The notes under the pieces are model-generated. The model had not been told where the DNA came from, did no database searches, and saw only the letters and a list, made by a program, of their open reading frames with translations. DNA of 61,662 nt from Desulfovulcanus ferrireducens (GTDB lineage: Bacteria; Desulfobacterota; Desulfovibrionia; Desulfovibrionales; Desulfonatronovibrionaceae): contig NZ_JAGUQP010000007.1 of the NCBI RefSeq assembly GCF_018704065.1, positions 1-61,662 of the forward strand, given 5' to 3'. How positions within the stretch are numbered: the first letter of the stretch is position 1; the number at the start of each line of letters is the position of its first letter. The position numbers and the translations under genes were made by a program. Of the stretch, positions 45,240 through 58,033 are shown one piece after another.

Positions 45240-45876
45240 AAAGATTTTCATTACTGGCACAGATACGGATGTGGGCAAAACAGTTATTTCTGCCCTCCTT
45301 GTTCTGGGTCTAGGAGCCAAGTATTGGAAGCCAATACAAAGCGGCACAGAAGAGGGCACAGATGTCCAAAAAATTCAAAACATGACCGGACTGGATGAAG
45401 AATATTTTCTCCCCGAGGTTTACAAACTAAAGGCTCCTCTTTCCCCGCATCTGGCAGCTAGGCTGGAAGGTATAAGTATAGATTTAAACCGGATTGTCCT
45501 CCCTGAAACGCAAGGTCCGCTTATCGTTGAGGGAGCCGGAGGCGTTATGGTCCCGGTAAATGAGGAGCAGTTTATGCTTGATCTCATGCAAAGGCTCGCG
45601 CTTCCGGTTCTGGTTGTGGCCAGAAGCACTTTGGGTACCATCAACCATACTCTCCTGACCATTGACAAACTCCGTCGAGCAAGAGTTGAGATTTTAGGCG
45701 TGGTTTTAAATGGTCCTCAAAATATTGAGAACAAAAAGGCCATAGAAAAATATGGAAAAGTTAATGTACTGGCTGAAGTGGAGCCGTTGCCTGAGCTTAC
45801 GCCTCAGGGGGTACAAGAGGCATTTAGACGATGTTTTGGGGGAAAAGGGGAGAATGCACTATCCACCCCTTCTTAA
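45223..45876 (+). CDS. bioD: Dethiobiotin synthetase
   Basis: The start at ATG 45223 ([20 protein letters not shown]) with AGGAAA upstream is preferred to the TTG at 45208. The 217-residue P-loop enzyme has GTDTDVGKT around residues 11-19, KPIQSG (~40) and [13 protein letters not shown] (~105). It closes the ureido ring using ATP and CO2. It follows bioA with an overlap. Its 3' end meets the - strand chemosensory operon with a 4-base overlap (45873-45876). Confidence 0.93.
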
Positions 45877-47375
45877 AACAACTCAATTTGAGGGCCTTCG
45901 TCTTTATCTGTTGTTAGAGTTTTTCCCGTTACATTTTCATGTACCTGGCGTTCACTATGCATTTTGTACTTGGTAAGCATTTCGTCAGCCTTAAAATCCT
46001 GCAGGTCTTTGAGCTGTTCCTGGTCATTTTTGTGGATTATGTCCAAAAAATTTTGGGCATGCGAGTTAATTTTATTTAATATTTCTACCACATTTTCTAT
46101 TCTTTGACGTGTAATATCCTGAAATTGGATATTGCTCATGGCTTCCATAAGCAAATTTGCAGCTTCCTGCGTTTTATTGTGCATTTTGGCAAGCATCTCT
46201 TGGTGGATTCTATCCAACTCGTCATAGGCATGAAGTAGCTCAAAAAGCTGGTTGTTCAACTGATCAAAGTTACGTTTTTGTTTGAGGCTATATTCTTTGT
46301 CCAATGTAGATTCAAAACGGCGTTCGACACTTTTAACTAACCCAAAAATTTGTTTTTGCATCTCATCGGCTGCTTGTTGAGATTTTGTAGAAAGTTTGTG
46401 CACTTCATCAGCAACTACCGCAAAGCCTCGCCCGGCTTCACCGGCGCGAGCTGCTTCAATAGCTGCATTTAAAGCCAGGAGCTTAGTTTGATCTGCTACT
46501 CCTTTGACCAAGGTAATTAAATCTACTAATTTTCTTATATCATCTAAAACAAGGCGCATATTTTGTTCATTTTCCTGGGCCTCCACCAGACGCTCTTCGG
46601 CTCCTTTTTGCATTGATTCAAGAGTATCCTTCCAATGGGTAGAGTCTGATCCCTCTGTTAGTTGTTTTACTTGATCCATAGATTCAGTTACAACCTGTAG
46701 GAGCTCCTGGACCGATTTATCTACGTGATCTAGACGTTCAACAATATCTTTAGCAGCATTTTCTGTGTCTGTAGTTACTGTAAACAATTGATCCTGAATA
46801 ATTTTATTGGTTAGGGAAAACTCTTGTAGACTTTTTTCCACTTTTTCTACAAAAAGTGGATGAATTTCTAAAGTTAAATCTTTATCTGTTTCTCTATCTG
46901 TCTCTGAAGTTTCTTCAGCCAAGGTGAGACTGTTTAGTTCGTCAACCAATGCCGTTAGTTTATGAGAAATATTTGTTAAAGTTGTATACAATTCATGAAG
47001 AAAAGACACTGTATCGTCGCCTGAATTAAAGTCGTTAATTTGTGACAAAGAAACAGAAAGACTTGCTATATTTTCATCTCCCTTTAGTTTGGTTAACTCT
47101 TTATACAACCGGTGCATAGTCTCTATTAATTCTGAAACCTCACGACTAATCTGGCGGGTTAATTGAATTAACTCTTTCTTTTTTTGAAGCTCTGTTTCTT
47201 GTCCGAAATATTGTCCTATAAAGGAGCATAACCAGGTAATGAGCAGCAAGGCAGGAATAGACAGAGCAATATTTAGCCGGCTCGATGTAGCAAACACCCA
47301 GTGCAGACCAAATCCGCCCGCCCCAGCGAGTAGACAAACAAGCCACAGGCTTAGCCACCTTGGAATTTTTTTCAT
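45873..47375 (-). CDS. Methyl-accepting chemotaxis-type protein, two TM helices and no periplasmic domain
   Basis: The start at ATG 47375 has GGGAGGAG upstream. The 500-residue protein has two close hydrophobic helices (residues 6-27 and 35-52) with only a few residues between them, then coiled coil, so it has no external sensing domain. The signalling tip is [40 protein letters not shown] (~residues 300-340). A CheW/CheZ-like C-terminal region lacks the usual receptor tail for CheR docking. It is the last gene of the operon and may sense membrane state or internal cues. Confidence 0.85.
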
Positions 47376-47442: not shown

Positions 47443-47814
47443 TTAGGTTCCTGGCAAGACCCTCTTGATCACCGCTAACAGATCCTGGGCTTTTACTGGT
47501 TTGACCAACCAGCCAGTGGCTCCGGCTTTTTTGGCCTCCTGGCGTTTAGTCTGCTGGGACTCTGTGGTGAGCATAAGAATAGGTACGAAGCGAAATCCTG
47601 GTAGTTTGCGCAGTTCCTTGATCAAAGTCATGCCATCCATAATCGGCATATTAAGATCAGTGATAACCAGGTCAGGTTTCAGCCCTGCATTTATTTTGTC
47701 AAGCGCCTTCTGGCCATTTTCTGCCTTTTCAACCTTATAGCCGGCTTTGGTTAAAATAGTAGTCATACTTAAAAGTAAGGTGCTTGAGTCATCCACGAGC
47801 AAAATTGTTTTCAT
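47443..47814 (-). CDS. cheY: CheY-like response regulator
   Basis: A 123-residue single receiver domain. It starts [17 protein letters not shown] with acidic DD at 8-9, the phosphoacceptor aspartate in [12 protein letters not shown] (D~54), and the conserved Thr/Lys in MLTTESQ and GWLVKP. It carries the CheA phosphoryl signal. It is the second of two stand-alone receivers in this operon; the two differ enough to have separate targets. Confidence 0.93.
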
Positions 47815-47838: not shown

Positions 47839-48612
47839 TTATCGTTTCCACAAAGTTTCTAACTCTTCAGCTAACAGATGGTAGTCCATGGCCCCAGGGC
47901 TTTTGGGAGCATAATGACTAACCGGCTGGCCAGCAGCAAAGGCCTCTGCCAGGCGCACATTAGTACGGATGCCGCGCAAAATACGTTGCTGGCCAAATTG
48001 GGCGGTCAGTTCTCTGATTACCTGTTGATGCATTTTGATTCGTCGATCAAACATAACCGGAAAAAGCCCTATCAGTCTTAACTCTTTATTATAATTAGTA
48101 GCCACTTGATAAAATAGGCGTGCCATTTGGCGTACGCCAATTCCGGCGAGATAATGGGGCAAGAAAGGAATTAATACCCCATGTGCAGCAGCCAAAGCAT
48201 TAACCAGGATAAGGTCTAAAGTAGGTGGTGTGTCCAGGATAATACGGGCAAAAGTTTGGTGGGCAAGAAGATCAGCCAACTGGCGTTTTAAAATCAAGTT
48301 GTCAGGATTAGCTTTGCTTGTTTGAAAATCTAAATTTGCGGGCACGAAATAGAGATTTTCGAAAACCGTTTTATGAACTGCTGTGTGCAGGCGAAATTGA
48401 GGGTCATGAAACATGTCGTGGGCATAAAGGTCGAATTTTCTTATGTCTTTAAAGCCAAGCCCCCAACCAGCATGACCTTGGGTGTCTAGATCAATTAGTA
48501 AACATTTCTTGCCTTGCCTAGCCCACTCCGCAGCCAGGTTCACGGCAGTAGTCGTTTTGCCTGTTCCACCCTTACGGTTAGCTATGGCTACGATCAGTGT
48601 ATGTTGAACCAT
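47839..48612 (-). CDS. ParA-family ATPase of a chemosensory system
   Basis: A 257-residue MinD/ParA-type ATPase. The deviant Walker A KGGTGKTT is at 14-21, the Walker A' LIDLDTQGHAG follows, and LDTPPTLDLILVNAL is the switch II region. In some bacteria a ParA protein (ParC, PpfA) encoded in a che operon places the soluble chemosensory array evenly in the cell and ensures its inheritance. The same is likely here, since this operon also encodes a soluble receptor. It follows the small STAS-like gene by two bases. Confidence 0.88.
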   Translation of the reverse strand: MVQHTLIVAIANRKGGTGKTTTAVNLAAEWARQGKKCLLIDLDTQGHAGWGLGFKDIRKFDLYAHDMFHDPQFRLHTAVHKTVFENLYFVPANLDFQTSKANPDNLILKRQLADLLAHQTFARIILDTPPTLDLILVNALAAAHGVLIPFLPHYLAGIGVRQMARLFYQVATNYNKELRLIGLFPVMFDRRIKMHQQVIRELTAQFGQQRILRGIRTNVRLAEAFAAGQPVSHYAPKSPGAMDYHLLAEELETLWKR

Positions 48613-48614
48613 TT

Positions 48615-48854
48615 TCAGGCCTTATGTCTTACCTTTGCAAGTACTGTCTGCAAAAATTCGTCTTCCGGAGGGGAAGCAATTTCCGGCTGCAGGGCCATCA
48701 GAACCTGAAGAATGGCTGTGTGAATGTGCTGTGCCTGCTTAAGGTCTAGTTTGCCAGCAGGGTGCTCTTTTAACCAATCAAGAAGAGGCTCGGCCTCTTC
48801 GACCGTGCAAATATCTGAAAAAATTGCTGTATCTTCGGTAATTTTTATAGGCAT
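48615..48854 (-). CDS. Small STAS-like protein
   Basis: A 79-residue protein starting 10 bases inside the end of cheA and ending two bases before the ParA start, so it is translationally embedded in the operon. The pattern ILDLKQAQHIHTAILQVLMAL resembles the strand-helix core of STAS or anti-sigma-antagonist-type domains (LDLSxVxxIDxxGLQLL), without the serine. I cannot assign a function. The position between CheA and ParA suggests an adaptor. Confidence 0.6.
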   Translation of the reverse strand: MPIKITEDTAIFSDICTVEEAEPLLDWLKEHPAGKLDLKQAQHIHTAILQVLMALQPEIASPPEDEFLQTVLAKVRHKA

Positions 48855-51493
48855 TTGACCAACTCCTTAAGGTTAAGAACCAGAAGTACCCGACCATCGC
48901 CAAGCAGGGTGGCTCCGGCATAAATGCGAAATTTAGCCATCAGGCCTTCCAATGGTTTTAAAATGATGTCTACCCCCTCGTGAAATTTATCCACAATCAG
49001 GCCCAACTCCTCCCTGCCGGTATTGACTACTAATATCGCCTCTTCTTCAGTCTCTTTCCTGGCGTTTTCTTGGGTAGAGAGTTGAAGAACATCACCTAAG
49101 CGACATAAAGGAATCAGACGATTTCGTAAAATAACGGTCTCTTTATTTTTTATCAGATGGATGTCATTTGCGGGCACGCGTACTGTTTCCATTACACTTT
49201 CTATGGGTACTCCAAAGATTTCTCCTCCAACTTCAATCATGAGTACTCTGGTTACAGCCATGGTTAAGGGTAGAGAAAGGCTGATGACTGTACCCCGCCC
49301 TTTTTCGCTTTTAATGGAGATGCTTCCACCGGCATTTTCAACCATGGTTCGGACGGCATCCATACCTACTCCTCGACCGGAAACATCAGATACCTGTTCA
49401 GCCGTGGACAGACCCGGGGCAAAAATAAGTTGAAGAGCTTCCTCTTCTGTAATTTGGTCCAGCTTTTCTTCATCGATTAGCCCCTTTTCATAGGCCTTGC
49501 GTTTAACTATTTCCGGATCAATTCCTCGGCCGTCATCACTAATTTCAATAACTACCTGATCCTCAAGGTGAATAGCGCGTAAACGGACTTCTCCTTCTAT
49601 AGGCTTACCCAAAGCTTCTCTCTCTTCTGGGGGTTCTATACCGTGATCGATGCTGTTACGCAGTAGATGTACCAGTGGCTCTGCCAGGTCTTCAACAACA
49701 TTTTTGTCTGCCTCTGTCTCCTCTCCTTCTATAATCAATCTGACTTTCTTGCCTAGTTTTCGGCTTAGATCTCTTACTAGGCGGGGGAAGCGTTGAAACA
49801 CATGTGATACGGGAACCATACGCACTTGCATCACAGCTGTTTGCAACTCTTCACAGATACGATTAATGGCTCCGTATTGTGTTTTAAGTTCCTTAGCCAA
49901 CTCCCTACTCTGAAAAACCTCTTCAGCCCTTTTGGCCAGAAAAGGCAAGCTGTTTTTAGCCACCACCAGTTCACTTACAAGGTCCATTAGGACATCTATG
50001 CGTTTTTGGTCCACCTTTAACACCTTGATCGTCTGCTTAACCGGAGGGCTTGGTTTTACAACTGGTTTTTTTTCTGTTTCTTGCTGGACAGGGGCCTGTT
50101 TCTCCGGCTCCTTGCGGATTGGTTCTGGTTCAGGCTCTGTACTGCCCTTGGATGATAAGATGTCGTTTATAAAAGTGAGGAGGGGAGAAAAACTTTTTTC
50201 TTTTTGAGCCTTATCTATAAGGGCAGAAATTTCTTCCGTGCTTTTCTCTATTGCAGAGAAAGGCAGACAGCGTTTTAAGACCTCGCCAATACTTAATAAA
50301 CGTCCTGTCCATAGCTCAGGAGGGCAAGGAAGCTGGAGCAACTTTTGTTGAGTGCGCAAAATGTCGAGGGCTAACTTAGTGGTAAGTTCATCTTTTTGTC
50401 CTTCTTCCTGTGGGTAGTCAACCTTATTTTCTTCTTGTTCTTCAACAACTTCTCCTTCTGGCATTATGCCTGTGGCAACGGCTTGAACCAGATTTTTTAT
50501 CAGGCTTTCATTTGGTCCGCTTGGATGCTCCAAAACAACTTTTAACCAGCGCAGGGCCGAGGCCTGGAAAAGATCAGGACCAGCCACTTCCAGGGCCACA
50601 TCAACAGCTTTGAGCAGAGATGACCAGTCCTTGTTATCAATTAACTGTGTGGCGTCCTGAACAAACAAACCAAAGGGTTCGTTATCGCCAACTTCTCCTT
50701 GCGGGAAAATCAAGTCTTGTATGGAAATTCTGGCCTGCTGTACTTCTTCTTCCACATAGGTAAAAAGCTCCTTTATCTCTTCCAGGGAAGCCTTGGTCAA
50801 AGCATAAAATTGTACCAGGCAGGTAAATGGATCAAACTCGTTTATATCCGGCCACGGTTCCCTTGTTTCTATGCCAAACCAACAAAGTTCAGGGATTTGA
50901 CGCATGGTATAAAGGGGATCATCGCCATTAAAAAAACACTGTTCGTCTGGTATATAGGTTATAGCCAGCAAGGTATCATTTAGATTTTGGGCTTGCCGTA
51001 CAATAAGTTGTCGTTCCTCTTCACTGATTTTGGCCAGCCAATCAATATTTGAACCCAGCTCAGCTTCATGCCCAGTATCAGTTTCCTGTTGTCCGTTTTC
51101 CAGGGCAACATTACTAATCATGCCTCTTAACTTTGTTTTTAGTTCTTCACTTATCTCTTCTGCATCCGGCGACAACTTTTCTTCTGCTTCCAGGTCGTCC
51201 AGCCAAGTATTTACCTGATCCAAACTATCTAAAAGAATATCCACCATATCTGGAGATAGTTTTAGGCGGCCTTCACGAACAATATCTAGCACATCCTCGG
51301 CAGCATGAACCACATTGGTTAAGGGAGCAATATCAAATAAGCCAGAGGAGCCTTTAATGGTATGGATAGCCCGGAAGAGACCATTTAGTATGTTTAAATC
51401 GTCCGGATTATTTTCCAGGTGCAGAAAAGCCTGGCTGGCTTCTTCCAGAAGTTCGCGGGATTCGTTTATAAACTCTTGTAAAAGCGTATTCAT
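48845..51493 (-). CDS. cheA: CheA histidine kinase with long linker
   Basis: An 882-residue CheA. The N-terminal Hpt domain carries the phosphorylated histidine H44 (RAIHTIKGSSG). A long, poorly conserved region (~120-490) contains acidic and proline-rich parts where CheY-binding P2 would lie. The P3 dimerisation helices follow (~495-560), then the ATPase with N box LLRNSIDHGIEPPEER, G1 DDGRGID and G2 GRGVGMDAVR. The C-terminal CheW-like P5 domain starts VLMIEVGGEIFGVPIESV. It is the kinase core of this pathway. It overlaps both neighbours. Confidence 0.95.
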   Translation of the reverse strand: MNTLLQEFINESRELLEEASQAFLHLENNPDDLNILNGLFRAIHTIKGSSGLFDIAPLTNVVHAAEDVLDIVREGRLKLSPDMVDILLDSLDQVNTWLDDLEAEEKLSPDAEEISEELKTKLRGMISNVALENGQQETDTGHEAELGSNIDWLAKISEEERQLIVRQAQNLNDTLLAITYIPDEQCFFNGDDPLYTMRQIPELCWFGIETREPWPDINEFDPFTCLVQFYALTKASLEEIKELFTYVEEEVQQARISIQDLIFPQGEVGDNEPFGLFVQDATQLIDNKDWSSLLKAVDVALEVAGPDLFQASALRWLKVVLEHPSGPNESLIKNLVQAVATGIMPEGEVVEEQEENKVDYPQEEGQKDELTTKLALDILRTQQKLLQLPCPPELWTGRLLSIGEVLKRCLPFSAIEKSTEEISALIDKAQKEKSFSPLLTFINDILSSKGSTEPEPEPIRKEPEKQAPVQQETEKKPVVKPSPPVKQTIKVLKVDQKRIDVLMDLVSELVVAKNSLPFLAKRAEEVFQSRELAKELKTQYGAINRICEELQTAVMQVRMVPVSHVFQRFPRLVRDLSRKLGKKVRLIIEGEETEADKNVVEDLAEPLVHLLRNSIDHGIEPPEEREALGKPIEGEVRLRAIHLEDQVVIEISDDGRGIDPEIVKRKAYEKGLIDEEKLDQITEEEALQLIFAPGLSTAEQVSDVSGRGVGMDAVRTMVENAGGSISIKSEKGRGTVISLSLPLTMAVTRVLMIEVGGEIFGVPIESVMETVRVPANDIHLIKNKETVILRNRLIPLCRLGDVLQLSTQENARKETEEEAILVVNTGREELGLIVDKFHEGVDIILKPLEGLMAKFRIYAGATLLGDGRVLLVLNLKELVKCL

Positions 51494-51861
51494 CTTGTCC
51501 CTCCCACCAAGATGTTAACGATACTTTGGAGTACCTCTGGCTGCACGGGTTTAACCAGATAATAATTTGCCCCGGCCTCATAGGCCTGTGCTTCATCTTG
51601 CTCGCCGGCTTCTGTGCTAATCATAATGGCCGGGATAGACATTAAGTCCGGATTCTGGCGTACTTCTTTTAAAAAACGATATCCATCCATTTTGGGCATG
51701 TTCACATCTACGAGCAATAAGTCAAAATTATCACGCATCATCTTTTCTAATGCCTCTACTCCATTTGCTGCCTCTTCTGCTTTCAGCCCTATTTCTTCTA
51801 CTTGTTGACGGTGATACATGCGGACTGTAACTGCATCATCAACTATCAATACCCGTTTCAT
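51490..51861 (-). CDS. cheY: CheY-like response regulator
   Basis: A 123-residue receiver domain. It starts MKRVLIVDDAVTVRMYH (DD at 8-9), with the phosphoacceptor in LLLVDVNMPKMDGYRF (~D53), and Thr/Lys in MISTEAG and YLVKPV. It lies directly upstream of cheA, overlapping its start by 4 bases, so it is probably the main substrate of this CheA. Confidence 0.93.
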   Translation of the reverse strand: MKRVLIVDDAVTVRMYHRQQVEEIGLKAEEAANGVEALEKMMRDNFDLLLVDVNMPKMDGYRFLKEVRQNPDLMSIPAIMISTEAGEQDEAQAYEAGANYYLVKPVQPEVLQSIVNILVGGTR

Positions 51862-51863
51862 GA

Positions 51864-52709
51864 CTATCTCCAGGTAGTTAAGGGTTTTTGATAGACAATG
51901 GCCTGGGGGAATTTACGTACCTTGAACAGGGAAGTTATCCGACTCATGGACTCTGAATGCCCTAAGAAGATAATTCCTCCAGGGTTTAAACTATCGTAAA
52001 ATGCCTCAGCTGCCTTGCGACGGGATACATCGTCAAAATAAATCAAAAGGTTGCGACAAAAAATAAGATCAAAGTCCCGCATTTTTTTTGTATCCTCAAA
52101 GTCACAGATGTTTATTTGTCTAAAATCAATGGCTTCGCGTAAATCCTGGTCAATAAGATAACGCCCGCCAGATAACTGTTTAAAATACTTTCGTAAAATT
52201 TCTCGAGGTAAATATTGTACGGAACGAGAATTATATATTCCTTGCTTGGATTTTTCTAATACTTTGGTATCAATATCAGAGGCAACAATTTCTACATCTA
52301 CTTCATCAATAAGAGGCCAGTATTCCAAAAGGTAAATGGCAATAGAGTAAGGTTCTTCTCCGGTAGAGCAGGGTATGGACCAGATACGAATGAGCTCCTT
52401 TTTTTTGCGTTGGACAATTTCTGGCAATACAGATTCAACCATGCACTTTAGTTGATATTCTTCCCGAAAGAAATAGGTCTCATTAACAGTCATTAAATTG
52501 ACTAGCTCTTGGAATTCCTTGCCTGAGGCCTGAAAACGCATAAAGGTGAAATAAGAACGAAAGTTACGATGGCCAGTAGCTTTGATGCGTTCGATCAATC
52601 TTTTATCCACAAAATAGCGTTTGGAATCTCCAAAATAGATGCCAGTTTTGCGGTAAAAGTAGTCGCGAAAGCGTTCAAAATCAGCATCCGAAATCTTGAT
52701 TTGAGACAT
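51864..52709 (-). CDS. cheR: CheR protein-glutamate methyltransferase
   Basis: A 281-residue enzyme with an N-terminal helical domain (FERFRDYFYRKTGIYFGDSKR) and a SAM-binding domain with IPCSTGEEPYSIAI (~135-148), DIDTKVLEKSKQGIYN, and FDLIFCRNLLIYFD (~215). It methylates receptor glutamates, counteracted by CheB from the same operon. It starts two bases after the HEAT-repeat gene ends. Confidence 0.95.
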   Translation of the reverse strand: MSQIKISDADFERFRDYFYRKTGIYFGDSKRYFVDKRLIERIKATGHRNFRSYFTFMRFQASGKEFQELVNLMTVNETYFFREEYQLKCMVESVLPEIVQRKKKELIRIWSIPCSTGEEPYSIAIYLLEYWPLIDEVDVEIVASDIDTKVLEKSKQGIYNSRSVQYLPREILRKYFKQLSGGRYLIDQDLREAIDFRQINICDFEDTKKMRDFDLIFCRNLLIYFDDVSRRKAAEAFYDSLNPGGIIFLGHSESMSRITSLFKVRKFPQAIVYQKPLTTWR

Positions 52710-52711
52710 GA

Positions 52712-53344
52712 TTATGCTTCACTCTTAGTCCGTTCAATGACAGTATCTACGGCAAAGGCAATGTATGGTTCGTTGGCAAAGCGTTGTTTGACCTCTAAAA
52801 GAGCAGGGATCATTTCCGGAGTCCCTACTTCTGCCAGGCGATCCAAGGCAGCAGCCACCACATTTACATGGTCATCGGTCCTAATCACCTGTAAAAGCCA
52901 TTCAGGTACCTGGGCATGTGGAAGAACCTGTAAAATATCTACGGCAAAGATACGTACATCAGAATCAGGGTCGCGCAAGAGTTTCTCTATATAAGGAGCT
53001 ACGGCTTCGGGTAATGCCTGAAGAACTTCTATTACTTTATTGCGAAGCCCTGCATCATCACTGCGTAAAAAAGGAATGAGATTCTTTACAACCTCTTCTC
53101 CGCCAATGGTTAACAGGCTGTTCAGAATGCTCTCTTGCACGCTTAACACCTGTTCTTTCTGAAGACGACGGCACAACGGCTCTACAGCCTGTTCAAAACC
53201 AGCCAGTTCTCTGGCAGCCCAGCGTCGAATCTGTATATCAGGATCATTGAGTTGATTTATAAGTCCCTGAAAATTACGCTTCAAAGATCTTCGTTCTTCT
53301 TTAGGTTTTGATTTTTGTATATCTCTTGCTTTTTTTAAGGCCAT
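52712..53344 (-). CDS. HEAT-repeat protein in che operon
   Basis: A 210-residue all-helical protein. Four or five HEAT/PBS-lyase-type repeats are visible, each with a D(P)D-x-x-x-R-x-x-A-x-x-x-L pattern (DPDIQIRRWAARELAGF, DAGLRNKVIEVLQAL, DPDSDVRIFAVDILQVL, DDHVNVVAAALDRLAEV). Such repeats bind proteins. Related genes accompany che loci in Desulfovibrio and deltaproteobacteria; their role there is a scaffold or adaptor, undefined in detail. It lies between cheB and cheR. Confidence 0.8.
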   Translation of the reverse strand: MALKKARDIQKSKPKEERRSLKRNFQGLINQLNDPDIQIRRWAARELAGFEQAVEPLCRRLQKEQVLSVQESILNSLLTIGGEEVVKNLIPFLRSDDAGLRNKVIEVLQALPEAVAPYIEKLLRDPDSDVRIFAVDILQVLPHAQVPEWLLQVIRTDDHVNVVAAALDRLAEVGTPEMIPALLEVKQRFANEPYIAFAVDTVIERTKSEA

Positions 53345-53366: not shown

Positions 53367-54416
53367 TTACATGGTCCATTTTATCAGGCGGTCAGCAATT
53401 TTATGCACGGGCAGAACCACATCTGCACCGCCGCGTTCTATAAGTTCCCTAGGCATGCCAAAGACTACAGCTGTTTCTTCAGATTCAGCAATTGTTCTTC
53501 CTCCCAGACGATGTAATTCTGTCATGGCTTCTGCTCCATCATAGCCCATGCCTGTTAGTTGGACGGCAATGATGTCTTTGGGATCAAGACACTTGAGAGC
53601 AGAGCGCACCATTCGATCTACACTGGGATGCCATAAAAGCTGCTTGTCCATAGGGAGGTTTACAGCTACCTTTCGTCCTAATTTTCGTCTGACCTCGACA
53701 TCCGCATCACCTTGGGCAATAAGAATTTCTCCGACCTGTAGGGGCAAGGGACGGTTTACCTCGCGTACTTCCAGTTGACAGCTTTGGTTCAAGCGTTTGG
53801 CAAAAACATTGGTAAAACGTGCCGGCATATGTTGGGCCACCAGTACAGGCAGGGGGAAGTCAGGGGGTAGCTGGGTTAGAATTTCTTCCAGGGCCCCAGG
53901 GCCACCGGTTGAACAACCTATCAGGACCAGACCGGGGATATCCCTAGTTATTTTGGGCCTAGCTTTTTTTATAGTGATTTTTTCGGGCTTTGCCCTATGA
54001 ATACGTAGTTTGGACCAACGCGTTCGTGAACGGGCCACAGCCCGTATCTTGGCAATGAGTTCTGGGCGAATATCCTTGATGCTTAAGGAAATCGTGCCCC
54101 CGGGCTTGGGTATATAATCCACTGCGCCCAGTTCCAGGGCCTCAAATGTGGCTAGAGCCCCTTTTTCGGTCAATGAGGAAACCATGATCACTGGACGGGG
54201 AAATTCGGTCATGATGTGACTTAAACAAGTCAACCCGTCCATTACGGGCATATTGATGTCCAGAGTAATGACATCGGGGTCTACTTTGGGAATTTGGTCT
54301 AAAGCATCCTGTCCATCTCTGGCCGTAAAAACTTCTATATCACCTTCTTCTTCCAGCATTTCCCGAATGTATTTGCGCATCAGGGCTGAATCGTCCACAA
54401 CTAAAACGCGCAGCAT
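53367..54416 (-). CDS. cheB: CheB protein-glutamate methylesterase
   Basis: The start is ATG 54416 (MLRVLVVDDSALMRK), since GTGGAGGAAAG just upstream is its ribosome-binding site; the GTG at 54428 is part of that site. The 349-residue protein has an N-terminal receiver (phosphoacceptor in VITLDINMPVMDG) and a C-terminal esterase with the catalytic Ser in GCSTGGPGAL, the His in VAQHMPARF, and the Asp in LTGMGYDGAEA. It removes receptor methyl groups and deamidates glutamines. Confidence 0.95.
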   Translation of the reverse strand: MLRVLVVDDSALMRKYIREMLEEEGDIEVFTARDGQDALDQIPKVDPDVITLDINMPVMDGLTCLSHIMTEFPRPVIMVSSLTEKGALATFEALELGAVDYIPKPGGTISLSIKDIRPELIAKIRAVARSRTRWSKLRIHRAKPEKITIKKARPKITRDIPGLVLIGCSTGGPGALEEILTQLPPDFPLPVLVAQHMPARFTNVFAKRLNQSCQLEVREVNRPLPLQVGEILIAQGDADVEVRRKLGRKVAVNLPMDKQLLWHPSVDRMVRSALKCLDPKDIIAVQLTGMGYDGAEAMTELHRLGGRTIAESEETAVVFGMPRELIERGGADVVLPVHKIADRLIKWTM

Positions 54417-54456
54417 CCTTTCCTCCACTGTTTTGAAAATTTAGGTTATGAGATGT

Positions 54457-56088
54457 CTAACTACCGGCTAACGCTTCCGGTTCCTTATTTTCCTCATTCA
54501 CATCCGCAAGTTCGGATACTTCCTGTTCATCTAACAGTTTACTAACGTCTAGAATCAAGATCATCCTGTTCTGATCTTTCAGGTTGGCCACTTTACCCAT
54601 TATTCGCGCCTGGTCTGCAGATAGTTTTGGTGAGTCTTCAATCACCTGGCTTGGAATGCGCAACACTTCAGATACAGCATCCACTATAAATCCACTGCGC
54701 AATCCATCAATGTTAAAGACAATGATCCGCTGGCTATCCTTACGTTCAATGGCCTTTAGGCCAAAACGTTTGCGCATATCAATTACAGGTAAAACAGTAC
54801 CCCGCAAGTTGATCATTCCTTCAATAAAGTCTGGCGTTTTGGGCACAACATTCATTTCTTCAGGAATCAAGATGATTTCCTGTATTGCATCAATCATTAC
54901 GCCATATTCCTGATCAGCCAGTTGGAATACAACTAACTGAATTTCTTCATCTTCTGTATTTTGTTGATTTAGATCAGCTGTCCTCATCTCTTCCTCCCCG
55001 TCCTCAAACTCCTGCCCTGTTTCAACAGCGGCCTGCATGGCTGGATGTTGAAACAGATTTTTTGCCGAGAGCACAGAAATAAGCCTTTTTCCTCCATTTA
55101 AACGACAAACCGCCTTTATCTCATCTAGCTCTCCACTGTTTGCGAGTAGACCAGGCATCTGCTCCCAATCTTCTTCAGCAACATATAAGACTTCCTGTAC
55201 TCGATCTACCACGATACCGACAGTTTGTGGACGTCTGACAGCCCCATTGTCCAGGGTAACAACTAGAATACGGTTACTTTCATCCACTTCCGCATTAGTT
55301 AATCCGAACATCCGGCGCAAACTAACCAGGGGCAGCATCTGGTGACGAAAATTAATCAGCCCCAAGACATGAGGATCTGTCTGCGGGACATGATTGATTT
55401 CTTCTGGAACGCGTACGATTTCTTTGAGCTCTGAAATCTCAAAGGCATATTCCTGGTTGTCCAGGAAAAAGCTTACAAGCTGGCGGGCACTGTCGTTTTC
55501 TTCCTCTTCGCTTTCCTTCCGTTCTATAAACCCCTGGCTCTCCCTTTTTTGAACCTCTGAGTCTGCCTCCTCCAGAAGAGATGAAAATTCTTTCTGGATT
55601 AAGGAGCGGACATCTAAAAGTTGAATCAGGCTGTGTCCTCCCACGTCTTTAACTACTCCGCTCAGTAATTCTACGCGTACTGTTGATTGGACAGAGTCCA
55701 CATCCTCAATTTTGTCTGGCTCTACGCTTAATACACGGTCTACCCGGTCCACCACCAGACCAATGGGGTGGCCAGAATCAATAATGATAACCCTACTAGT
55801 CTCAGTAAGTTCTGAGGCTGGCAGGCCTAAGTTAAGACGTAAATCTAGCACAGGCAGGACAGTCCCCCGCAAATTTGCCAATCCCATAAGACTTGCCGGG
55901 GTCAAGGGCACACTAACTGTTTCCGGGACCCAAATAATTTCTAGGACTGTATGCATGGGAAAGGCAAAACACTCTTTCCCAATATAAAAAGTTATGTATT
56001 GATTAAGATCTTCTGCTTCTATCAAGTCCAAACCTTCTCCTTCAGGTGGAGAATGGTCCGCTGACATTTTCGTTGCTTGCATCGCCAT
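54457..56088 (-). CDS. Triple CheW-domain coupling protein
   Basis: The start is ATG 56088 (MAMQATK), eight bases after AAGGAGG. The 543-residue protein consists of three tandem CheW domains, near residues 15-165, 205-345 and 385-515. Each has a xYxFEI/xYGVxI strand, a VP box (IIWVPE, IVRVPE, IILIPE), a G(L/M)xNxRGxxLPxxxLR segment, and the second-half VD motif (VVDRVDRVL, VVDRVQEVL, IVDAVSEVL). The linkers are acidic. CheW normally links one receptor to CheA. Three domains could bridge several receptor tips or kinases, and the neighbouring receptor has two tips. Confidence 0.9.
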   Translation of the reverse strand: MAMQATKMSADHSPPEGEGLDLIEAEDLNQYITFYIGKECFAFPMHTVLEIIWVPETVSVPLTPASLMGLANLRGTVLPVLDLRLNLGLPASELTETSRVIIIDSGHPIGLVVDRVDRVLSVEPDKIEDVDSVQSTVRVELLSGVVKDVGGHSLIQLLDVRSLIQKEFSSLLEEADSEVQKRESQGFIERKESEEEENDSARQLVSFFLDNQEYAFEISELKEIVRVPEEINHVPQTDPHVLGLINFRHQMLPLVSLRRMFGLTNAEVDESNRILVVTLDNGAVRRPQTVGIVVDRVQEVLYVAEEDWEQMPGLLANSGELDEIKAVCRLNGGKRLISVLSAKNLFQHPAMQAAVETGQEFEDGEEEMRTADLNQQNTEDEEIQLVVFQLADQEYGVMIDAIQEIILIPEEMNVVPKTPDFIEGMINLRGTVLPVIDMRKRFGLKAIERKDSQRIIVFNIDGLRSGFIVDAVSEVLRIPSQVIEDSPKLSADQARIMGKVANLKDQNRMILILDVSKLLDEQEVSELADVNEENKEPEALAGS

Positions 56089-56104
56089 CACATCCTCCTT
56101 CCCC

Positions 56105-58033
56105 TTATGAACTCTGGAGTTCATCTGCGACAGAAGCGATCTCCTCTGTGGCTGCAGCCAGTTCTTCTATTCCTTTGGCTTGCTCTTGTGCTGCTGTACT
56201 TGCTTCAGCTGTTGCTGATCCGGCCTCCTCAGCCGCAGCCGCGATTTCATCAATGCCTTTTTTGGTTTGGGAGAGAGCAGTGACGATCTCAATGCTGGCA
56301 TCGTAAATAACTTGGTTGCCATTGACTACATTTCTCATTTGGGAGGAAATATCATCCAGCTTCTGCGTAGTGCCTTCCGCCTTTTTCACTTCCTCCATAG
56401 CTGCGTTCACAATTTCTGCCAGGTCGTTGCTTACGTACATGATCTGATCCTGAATACTTTTGACCAACTCCTTGACCTGCTCTGCATTTTCAGCCGCATC
56501 ACTGGCGAGGTTTTGAATGTCTGTAGAAACTACAGCAAAACCTTTCCCGTACTCCCCGGCCCGCGCAGCCTCTATGGCTCCACTGACTGCCAGCATGCTT
56601 GTCTGGATGGCCACAGTAGCAATGGTATCCACAATTTTATCCATACGCCGCACAATTTTATCCAATTGCTGCATGGCTTCCCGATTTTTTAAGCTTTCTT
56701 GCAGATTGTTCTTAATGCCTTCTATCATTTCTTTTACAGCTTCGATGTTTTCTGCCACAAAGTTTGCCATTTTTTCGCCTTTGTTCATGGCTTCTTTGGC
56801 GCTGTCTTCAGTCACCCGGGCATTTTTTTCGATCTGACTGATGCTGGCCGCAATTTCTTGTACGGCAGCACTCTGCTGGTCAGCCCCTTTGCTAATTTGG
56901 GTTATAGCCGCCATAATTTCCTGGCTGGAGCGGTGATTTTCTTCAATGGCAGCAGCCAGTTCCTCGGCTGCAGCAGCGACTTCTTCAGCACTCTTGGTTA
57001 TATCTGTGCTGTTTTTTAAATCTTCAGCCAACTCTTCCAGTTCTTGTGCTGCCTTTTCACTTTGTTCTAGAGCAATCTTTTGCTGCTCAACATTATTTAA
57101 GGCCTCTTCGCAGGCCGCTGCTTGTTCTTCGGCTGCTGCGGCAATGTCTTCCGCTCCTTTTTGTGCCTCAACAGAGGCCTGTTCCACTTCTACAGCATTC
57201 TGGGCAATCTTCTCTGCGCTTTGATAGATTTCTCCCATGCCATTTTTGATTTCTTCGAGCTGTGCAGTTATATTAGTTCCCTTATCGGCCTCTTTTTTGA
57301 CTGTTTCCGCTGAAGTATTTATACCCCTACTCAAGGCTTGCATCTGAGTCTGAATCTGCTCCACCAGCTGAGCAATATTGACGGCATTTTTTTCGGTCTT
57401 TTCGGCCAATGTACGTACTGTGTCGGCAACTACCGCAAAACCTTTTCCATGTTTACCTGCCCGCGCTGCTTCTATCGCTGCATTTAAAGCCAATAGATTG
57501 GTTTTATCCGCTATCTTGATTACGGCTTTAACTGTTTCATTTATCTTGTCCGCCTGCTTTTCCAGTTCAGCCATCTTTTCTACAGACCCTGATTGCCTTT
57601 CGGCTCCTAGAACAACACTTTCCACCAAGGCTCCAATTTCTACCCGTGCTTCTTCAAGAAGCTGCTGTAATTTTTTAACTTGAGTCCTGGATTCTTCAGC
57701 ATTGTCTGCTTGTTCCTTAACCCGTTTTACTATCTGGTTCATGGCAGCGAGAGATTCTTGCGTTGCCCCGCTTGCCTCTTCTGCTCCACCAGCGATCTGT
57801 TCCATGGCCTTGGCTAATTCTTCTACAGCCGTTAAAGCCTGGGTAACACCGCTGGCCAATTCTGTTGAGGCCATAGCAATACGCTCGGCCGCTTGTTGCT
57901 GTTTAGCCAATGTCCTGGCTCTGCGTCTCCTTTCTTCGGCCTCTCTTCTCGCTCGGGTAGCAGAAGTATCCTGCTTAACCGTATCGGAATTAAGCCGTCT
58001 TTTTGACTCTGATACTTGTTTTTTTAAAGGCAT
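56105..58033 (-). CDS. Soluble chemoreceptor with two signalling tips
   Basis: The start is ATG 58033 with AGGAGG seven bases upstream. The 642-residue protein has no membrane helix. A short basic N-terminus leads into continuous heptad coiled coil. Two MCP hairpin tips are seen: [21 protein letters not shown] at ~174-194 (canonical), and [21 protein letters not shown] at ~474-494 (variant, with SMLAVSG replacing NLLALNA). Alanine/glutamate-rich methylation-type helices flank each (residues ~55-100, ~350-400, and the C-terminus). It is probably a cytoplasmic receptor. The first gene of the operon. Confidence 0.88.

Follow-up and report, generated by a model that had tools for sequence, protein, structure and literature searches.

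A gene for an adaptor with three CheW domains (cheW3) adjoins a gene for a receptor with two signalling tips (dosM) in Desulfovulcanus ferrireducens, which raises the question of what kind of chemosensory array such a pair would build. The window analyzed here is the whole stretch of 61,662 nucleotides of contig NZ_JAGUQP010000007.1. The chemosensory cluster that contains both genes spans positions 58033 down to 45873 of the window on the minus strand (Table 1).

Table 1. Features of the chemosensory cluster of D. ferrireducens. Positions are those of the window.
Feature	Position	Strand	Remarks
dosM	56105..58033	-	642-aa cytoplasmic receptor, two MCP signalling tips
DosM tip 1	57437..57472	-	residues 188-199
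DosM predicted helix break	57002..57010	-	residues 342-344, near the inter-tip midpoint; AlphaFold2 pLDDT 84-89
DosM tip 2	56537..56572	-	residues 488-499; 300 residues past tip 1
RBS-like aaggagg 5' of cheW3	56094..56100	-	identified by eye
cheW3	54457..56088	-	543 aa; CheW domains at residues 29-165, 203-348 and 384-520
CheW domain 1	about 55591..56004	-	NLRG retained; genome search E=1.2e-30
CheW domain 2	55045..55482	-	NFRH replaces NLRG; genome search E=2.1e-28
CheW domain 3	about 54523..54939	-	NLRG retained; best conserved of the three; genome search E=4.5e-36
cheB	53367..54428	-	receiver and methylesterase
HEAT-repeat protein	52712..53344	-	in most F9 clusters, flanked by cheB and cheR
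cheR	51864..52709	-	
cheY-like receiver a	51490..51861	-	
cheA	48845..51493	-	Hpt, dimerisation, kinase, one CheW/P5
ParA-type ATPase gene	47839..48612	-	inside the cluster
cheY-like receiver b	47443..47814	-	
Last receptor of the cluster	45873..47375	-	N-terminal pair of hydrophobic segments, single MCP tip, CheZ-like C-terminal region

The cheW3 reading frame starts with an ATG at 56088-56086 on the minus strand and its stop codon ends at 54457. Pfam CheW matched three stretches of the 543-residue protein (whole-protein E=8.8e-93), and the probability of obtaining three matches at such E-values by chance is negligible. A VP...VP stretch and a VDRV or VDAV stretch were found in each domain, and the loop sequences of domains 1, 2, and 3 are NLRG, NFRH, and NLRG. 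Pfam shows CheW only, and no receiver, ParC-binding or CheR-like fusion of the CheV, ParP or CheW-CheRlike type was found in the protein. DosM gave two MCPsignal matches, no hydrophobic segment was found in it, and its stop codon ends at 56105, 16 bases before cheW3. A preliminary description of this DNA had claimed three tandem CheW domains, each with a VP box and a VD motif, behind a receptor with two tips at a distance of 16 bases; Pfam and the genome search confirm the domains, and the motifs, the gap and the two tips are as described.

AlphaFold2 gave three CheW folds in CheW3 joined by linkers of low confidence (residues 170-199 and 364-380; mean pLDDT 69.6), and with a pTM of 0.49 the relative placement of the domains is not firmly given by the model. 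The order of the domains and the linker lengths were kept across 28 CheW3 proteins, a set without G057, G487, the CheW3 of a Denitrovibrio metagenome-assembled genome (MAG) and one set added later. The linkers comprise 26-38 and 22-47 residues, about 33 being typical, which corresponds to 7.9-16.9 nm when fully stretched, with maxima of 13.7 nm for the first and 16.9 nm for the second. Mean pairwise identity was 0.38 for domain 1, 0.37 for domain 2, and 0.44 for domain 3. NLRG was intact in domain 1 of 26 of the 28 proteins and in domain 3 of all but two rows. For domain 2 the loop arginine was present in 28/28, while the G of NLRG was found in 9/28 and lost in the other 19. Domain 2 is consistently the odd one of the three, an observation that may be new.

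In five genomes (L200, L201, L202, L203, and L207) an insert of roughly 100 residues interrupts the middle domain. The insert matches Pfam CZB in four of them, two over the cut-off, and may place a zinc or redox sensor domain inside the adaptor. CheW-CZB proteins have already been published (PMC8262984, in the part of the text available). In the CheW3 of the Denitrovibrio MAG, a TAG lies in frame near the start of the third CheW domain (L056:11684-11686), either a nonsense codon or an assembly error.

Wuichet and Zhulin reportedly treated F9, in 2010, as a phylogenetic class of CheA. According to the available text of PMC9321776, the F9 signature is DosM, with double signalling domains, together with CheW3, a concatenated triple CheW; DosM is described there as cytoplasmic, with tandem signalling domains and without a sensory domain; 64 of the 2781 species are counted as having full F9 clusters and eight as having partial ones. 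We found the same features in the window: an adaptor of three concatenated CheW domains, a cytoplasmic receptor with two tandem signalling domains and no sensory domain, and a cheW3 that adjoins dosM within a full cluster that also contains cheA, cheB, cheR, and cheY, the comparison being with three Vibrio-genus clusters. The dosM/cheW3 pair in the window is the already described F9 signature. It is like the F9 system of V. cholerae, cluster I, in which the double-tip cytoplasmic receptor VC1403 (DosM) adjoins the triple CheW VC1402 (PMC7534058, available text).

The gene order in the window is dosM-cheW3-cheB-HEAT-cheR-cheY-cheA-parA-cheY-receptor. It was shared by all three of the Vibrio-genus clusters, the only ones found among 148 genomes searched for DosM, save for parA, which in the window separates cheA from the second cheY but is absent from these clusters. 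Vibrio metoecus and V. mimicus were searched in place of V. cholerae, and in neither did a CheW3 reach E<=1e-40. The order dosM, cheW3, cheB was found in 32 of the 35 loci compared, the exceptions being G165 and G129, which have no dosM, and G487, where the contig ends. Of the 35 loci, 14 contain a ParA match (E<1e-20). In Rhodobacter sphaeroides the ParA homologue PpfA partitions the cytoplasmic cluster, and CheOp3 of that organism (TlpT, PpfA) resembles the present system in having a cytoplasmic double baseplate, about 30 nm apart, and a ParA-type gene in the operon. It differs in that its array is curved and not flat and its CheA is split, and the parts of the CheOp3 description at hand make no mention of a triple CheW or a double-tip receptor.

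In a quick CheA tree (SH-aLRT only; the row of G967 was lost), which compares with cluster CheAs and not with labelled F-class references, the CheA of the window fell in a starred group of 12 rows, all from DosM/CheW3 clusters and including the three from Vibrio. The three other CheAs of the genome, on contigs C1, C3, and C20, fell outside all 31 cluster CheAs with a split support of 83. The genome also carries further single-domain CheWs and three flagellin-type matches. The CheA on contig C1 (L049:5399-8557, G000:C1) contains a pair of CheW domains and, at its C-terminus, a stretch resembling a receiver.

The pairing of CheW3 and DosM was assessed across genomes, with scoring limited in each phylum search to the best two to five candidates of a genome. 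Among 394 genomes of the phylum of D. ferrireducens, CheW3 was found in 13 and DosM in 13, with both in 11 (E<=1e-60; Fisher P=7.8e-18); among 279 genomes of the phylum of Azospirillum picis the numbers were 8, 8, and 7 (Fisher P=2.6e-12). These P values treat genomes as independent, which related genomes are not. The preliminary description had made its proposal depend on such co-occurrence, and both samples show it (11/394 and 7/279 genomes with both). Within the order of D. ferrireducens, 7 of 348 genomes had a CheW3, each adjoining a receptor of the DosM kind; the contig of G031 in this set holds the second tip only, and the frames of G057 are broken. The DosM of G337 adjoins a triple CheW with its middle domain split by an insert. 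Contig ends cut several other loci: the CheW gene after the DosM of G487 runs into one past a single domain, the DosM of G1083 lies at one, and the CheW gene of G1100 is cut in its second domain, no DosM having been found in that genome.

Two genomes, G129 and G165 (L199 and L198), have a triple CheW with cheB and cheR behind it, and no double-tip receptor was found near it, in 17.0 and 15.6 kb, respectively, or at threshold in the whole genome. They constitute a second context for the triple CheW, and CheW3 is therefore not tied to DosM everywhere. The pairing of CheW3 and DosM is nevertheless real and strongly conserved. A scan of genome contigs with the single CheW3 protein gave no relative. 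The same scan with a tip-2 alignment gave at least 80 loci, a biased slice, all of which were scanned for frames with multiple CheW domains or multiple tips; five of these (L053-L057) were inspected closely, L054 being dropped for its short contig and masked bases. The named-genome search covered 50 of 80 loci, of which 16 were over the cut; only G061, G063, G064, G065, and G069 resemble a triple CheW, while the remaining matches are a single CheW or a CheA adjoining a CheW (G066).

In the literature covered, F9 arrays are described from V. cholerae, in which the array is cytoplasmic and hexagonal with two baseplates, and deletion of the F9 CheA leaves fewer arrays but not zero (PMC7534058, available sections). 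By cryo-tomography the packing is hexagonal at 12 nm, as in membrane arrays, and the baseplates are 35 nm apart (PMC3964821, text in part), a spacing also given in the accessible part of PMC7184735. In the literature on F9 arrays we found no function and no solved arrangement of a triple CheW.

With high confidence we consider the cluster in the window to encode an F9-class core in which a DosM rod joins two opposed baseplates, while CheW3 and CheA build these baseplates, CheW3 contributing three domains in one molecule. Each end of this cytoplasmic rod would carry a tip for kinase control, and the rod would hold together the two baseplates, both formed by CheW3 with CheA. That D. ferrireducens builds the same two-baseplate array as V. 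cholerae we infer from its genes, and the places taken by the three CheW3 domains are likewise deduced. The domains, being flexibly linked, would most likely fill three CheW places in one ring or in adjoining rings. The linkers are far shorter than 35 nm, so one molecule most likely stays within one baseplate. Concatenation would raise avidity, hold CheW at a fixed stoichiometry and help a flat sheet to stay stable in the absence of a membrane. Several CheW-type domains are also found in one baseplate in the F2 system of Treponema denticola with CheW-CheRlike. Unlike here, the array symmetry does change in that system (P2), and the cause is separate proteins together with a linear order of CheA, not a concatenated CheW.

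The preliminary description had seen in CheW3 a multivalent coupler to match the two-tip receptor, suggesting a lattice unlike the standard hexagon. The strict pairing of the two architectures fits this, as does the inequality of the three domains implied by the loss of the G of NLRG from most middle domains. We nevertheless regard it as highly improbable: the F9 arrays of V. cholerae, built with a triple CheW, have the hexagonal packing cited above, the linkers are too short to join both baseplates, and G129 and G165 have a triple CheW where no double-tip receptor was found. What is unusual in the geometry is the two opposed baseplates, and since the two tips point to opposite baseplates, which the linkers are too short to span, the matching of coupler to receptor found no support.

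The divergence of domain 2 could also mean that CheW3 is a filler of CheA-free rings or spacer places, with two molecules making one ring of six CheWs at a low CheA:CheW ratio and coupling left to domain 3 or to the single-domain CheWs of the genome. Domain 2 usually lacks the glycine that domains 1 and 3 mostly keep within NLRG, F9 arrays are fewer yet present after deletion of CheA (PMC7534058, available sections), and other single-domain CheWs do exist in this genome, all of which speak for such a role. On the other hand, the loop arginine is retained in every domain 2, which is therefore not plainly dead, and we hold the filler role to be possible but rather unlikely.

The shape of DosM bears on how an F9-class rod could hold two baseplates. 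Measured between the same position of both tips, the spacing came to 300 residues in 33 of the 34 sequences, which represent several phyla, and it was likewise 300 in the three Vibrio-genus DosMs. The count excludes G031, where the contig ends, and G057, whose frames are broken, and includes near-copies. Over the stretch between the tips, pairs of DosMs shared a median identity of 37%, the lowest value being 16%. The sole exception is the DosM of the Denitrovibrio MAG, with a spacing of 402 and a zinc-sensing CZB domain between the tips (L056:8291-10558). AlphaFold2 (five sequences, mean pLDDT 89.8) predicted helices at residues 23-191, 193-341, and 345-641, with tips at about 192 and 492 and their midpoint at about 342, and a conserved DLKxSTDxxKSAE-like stretch lies at the predicted break. 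The model cannot be right throughout, because its helix runs unbroken through tip 2, where homology demands a turn. The invariant spacing combined with a mid-helix break may be new.

A helix rises 0.1485 nm per residue, and 300 residues as a straight helix would measure 44.6 nm. A simple straight-rod picture does not fit, because a helix of about 45 nm exceeds the 35 nm in V. cholerae; a straight DosM helix would put the baseplates 42-45 nm apart, and the rod would then have to bend or tilt at a joint. We tentatively suggest, as a doubtful possibility, that DosM is a fixed molecular ruler, bent or tilted at a central joint where two layers couple and where its N- and C-terminal arms would also end.

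The origin of the three CheW domains was addressed with a tree of 95 rows (the domains of 24 CheW3 proteins, 18 single CheWs and 5 CheA domains, with four near-duplicates omitted). The five labels required 8 changes, compared to a minimum of 4 and a shuffled mean of 54.6. No position label formed a single group (2 changes for domain 1, 4 each for domains 2 and 3), and several forks are open. CheW domains of the same position tended to cluster across phyla, and the domains of the CheW3 in the window were not each other's nearest relatives. Because same-position domains group across phyla, the tree is in line with one old triplication that would have given non-interchangeable domains in the DosM-linked set, with G129, G165, and a few others unplaced. 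That all three domains of the protein come from one family would also be expected if the triple CheW were a recent local tandem duplication with no special function. This is extremely improbable given the grouping by position, the linker lengths and domain order preserved in the 28 proteins, and the presence of the triple CheW in several phyla.

The last receptor of the cluster gave weak CheZ matches, both below the cut-off (Pfam E=0.0014; NCBIfam E=1.6e-5). It carries QFQDITRQ, with a spacing which we take to be like that of the catalytic D and Q of CheZ, and a motif of this type was found in 15 of 19 receptors of the last type in DosM/CheW3 clusters. It is possibly a receptor-bound CheY phosphatase. 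Its C-terminus reads IELF. The known CheR-docking pentapeptide has a WxxF form, which this xELF end lacks, and the end was rejected as a docking site. On contig C20 of the same genome, a further protein (L051:355-2163, G000:C20), in which no hydrophobic segment was found, combines two MCP-like regions with a CheZ-like MQFHDITRQ and a pair of C-terminal ENVELF repeats.

To the F9 class the window adds a full cluster that includes a ParA gene; the genome is flagellated and carries three other CheAs. The invariant 300-residue tip spacing and the consistently divergent middle CheW domain provide measurable handles on this class. If DosM is indeed a ruler, the spacing of array layers would be predictable from sequence.
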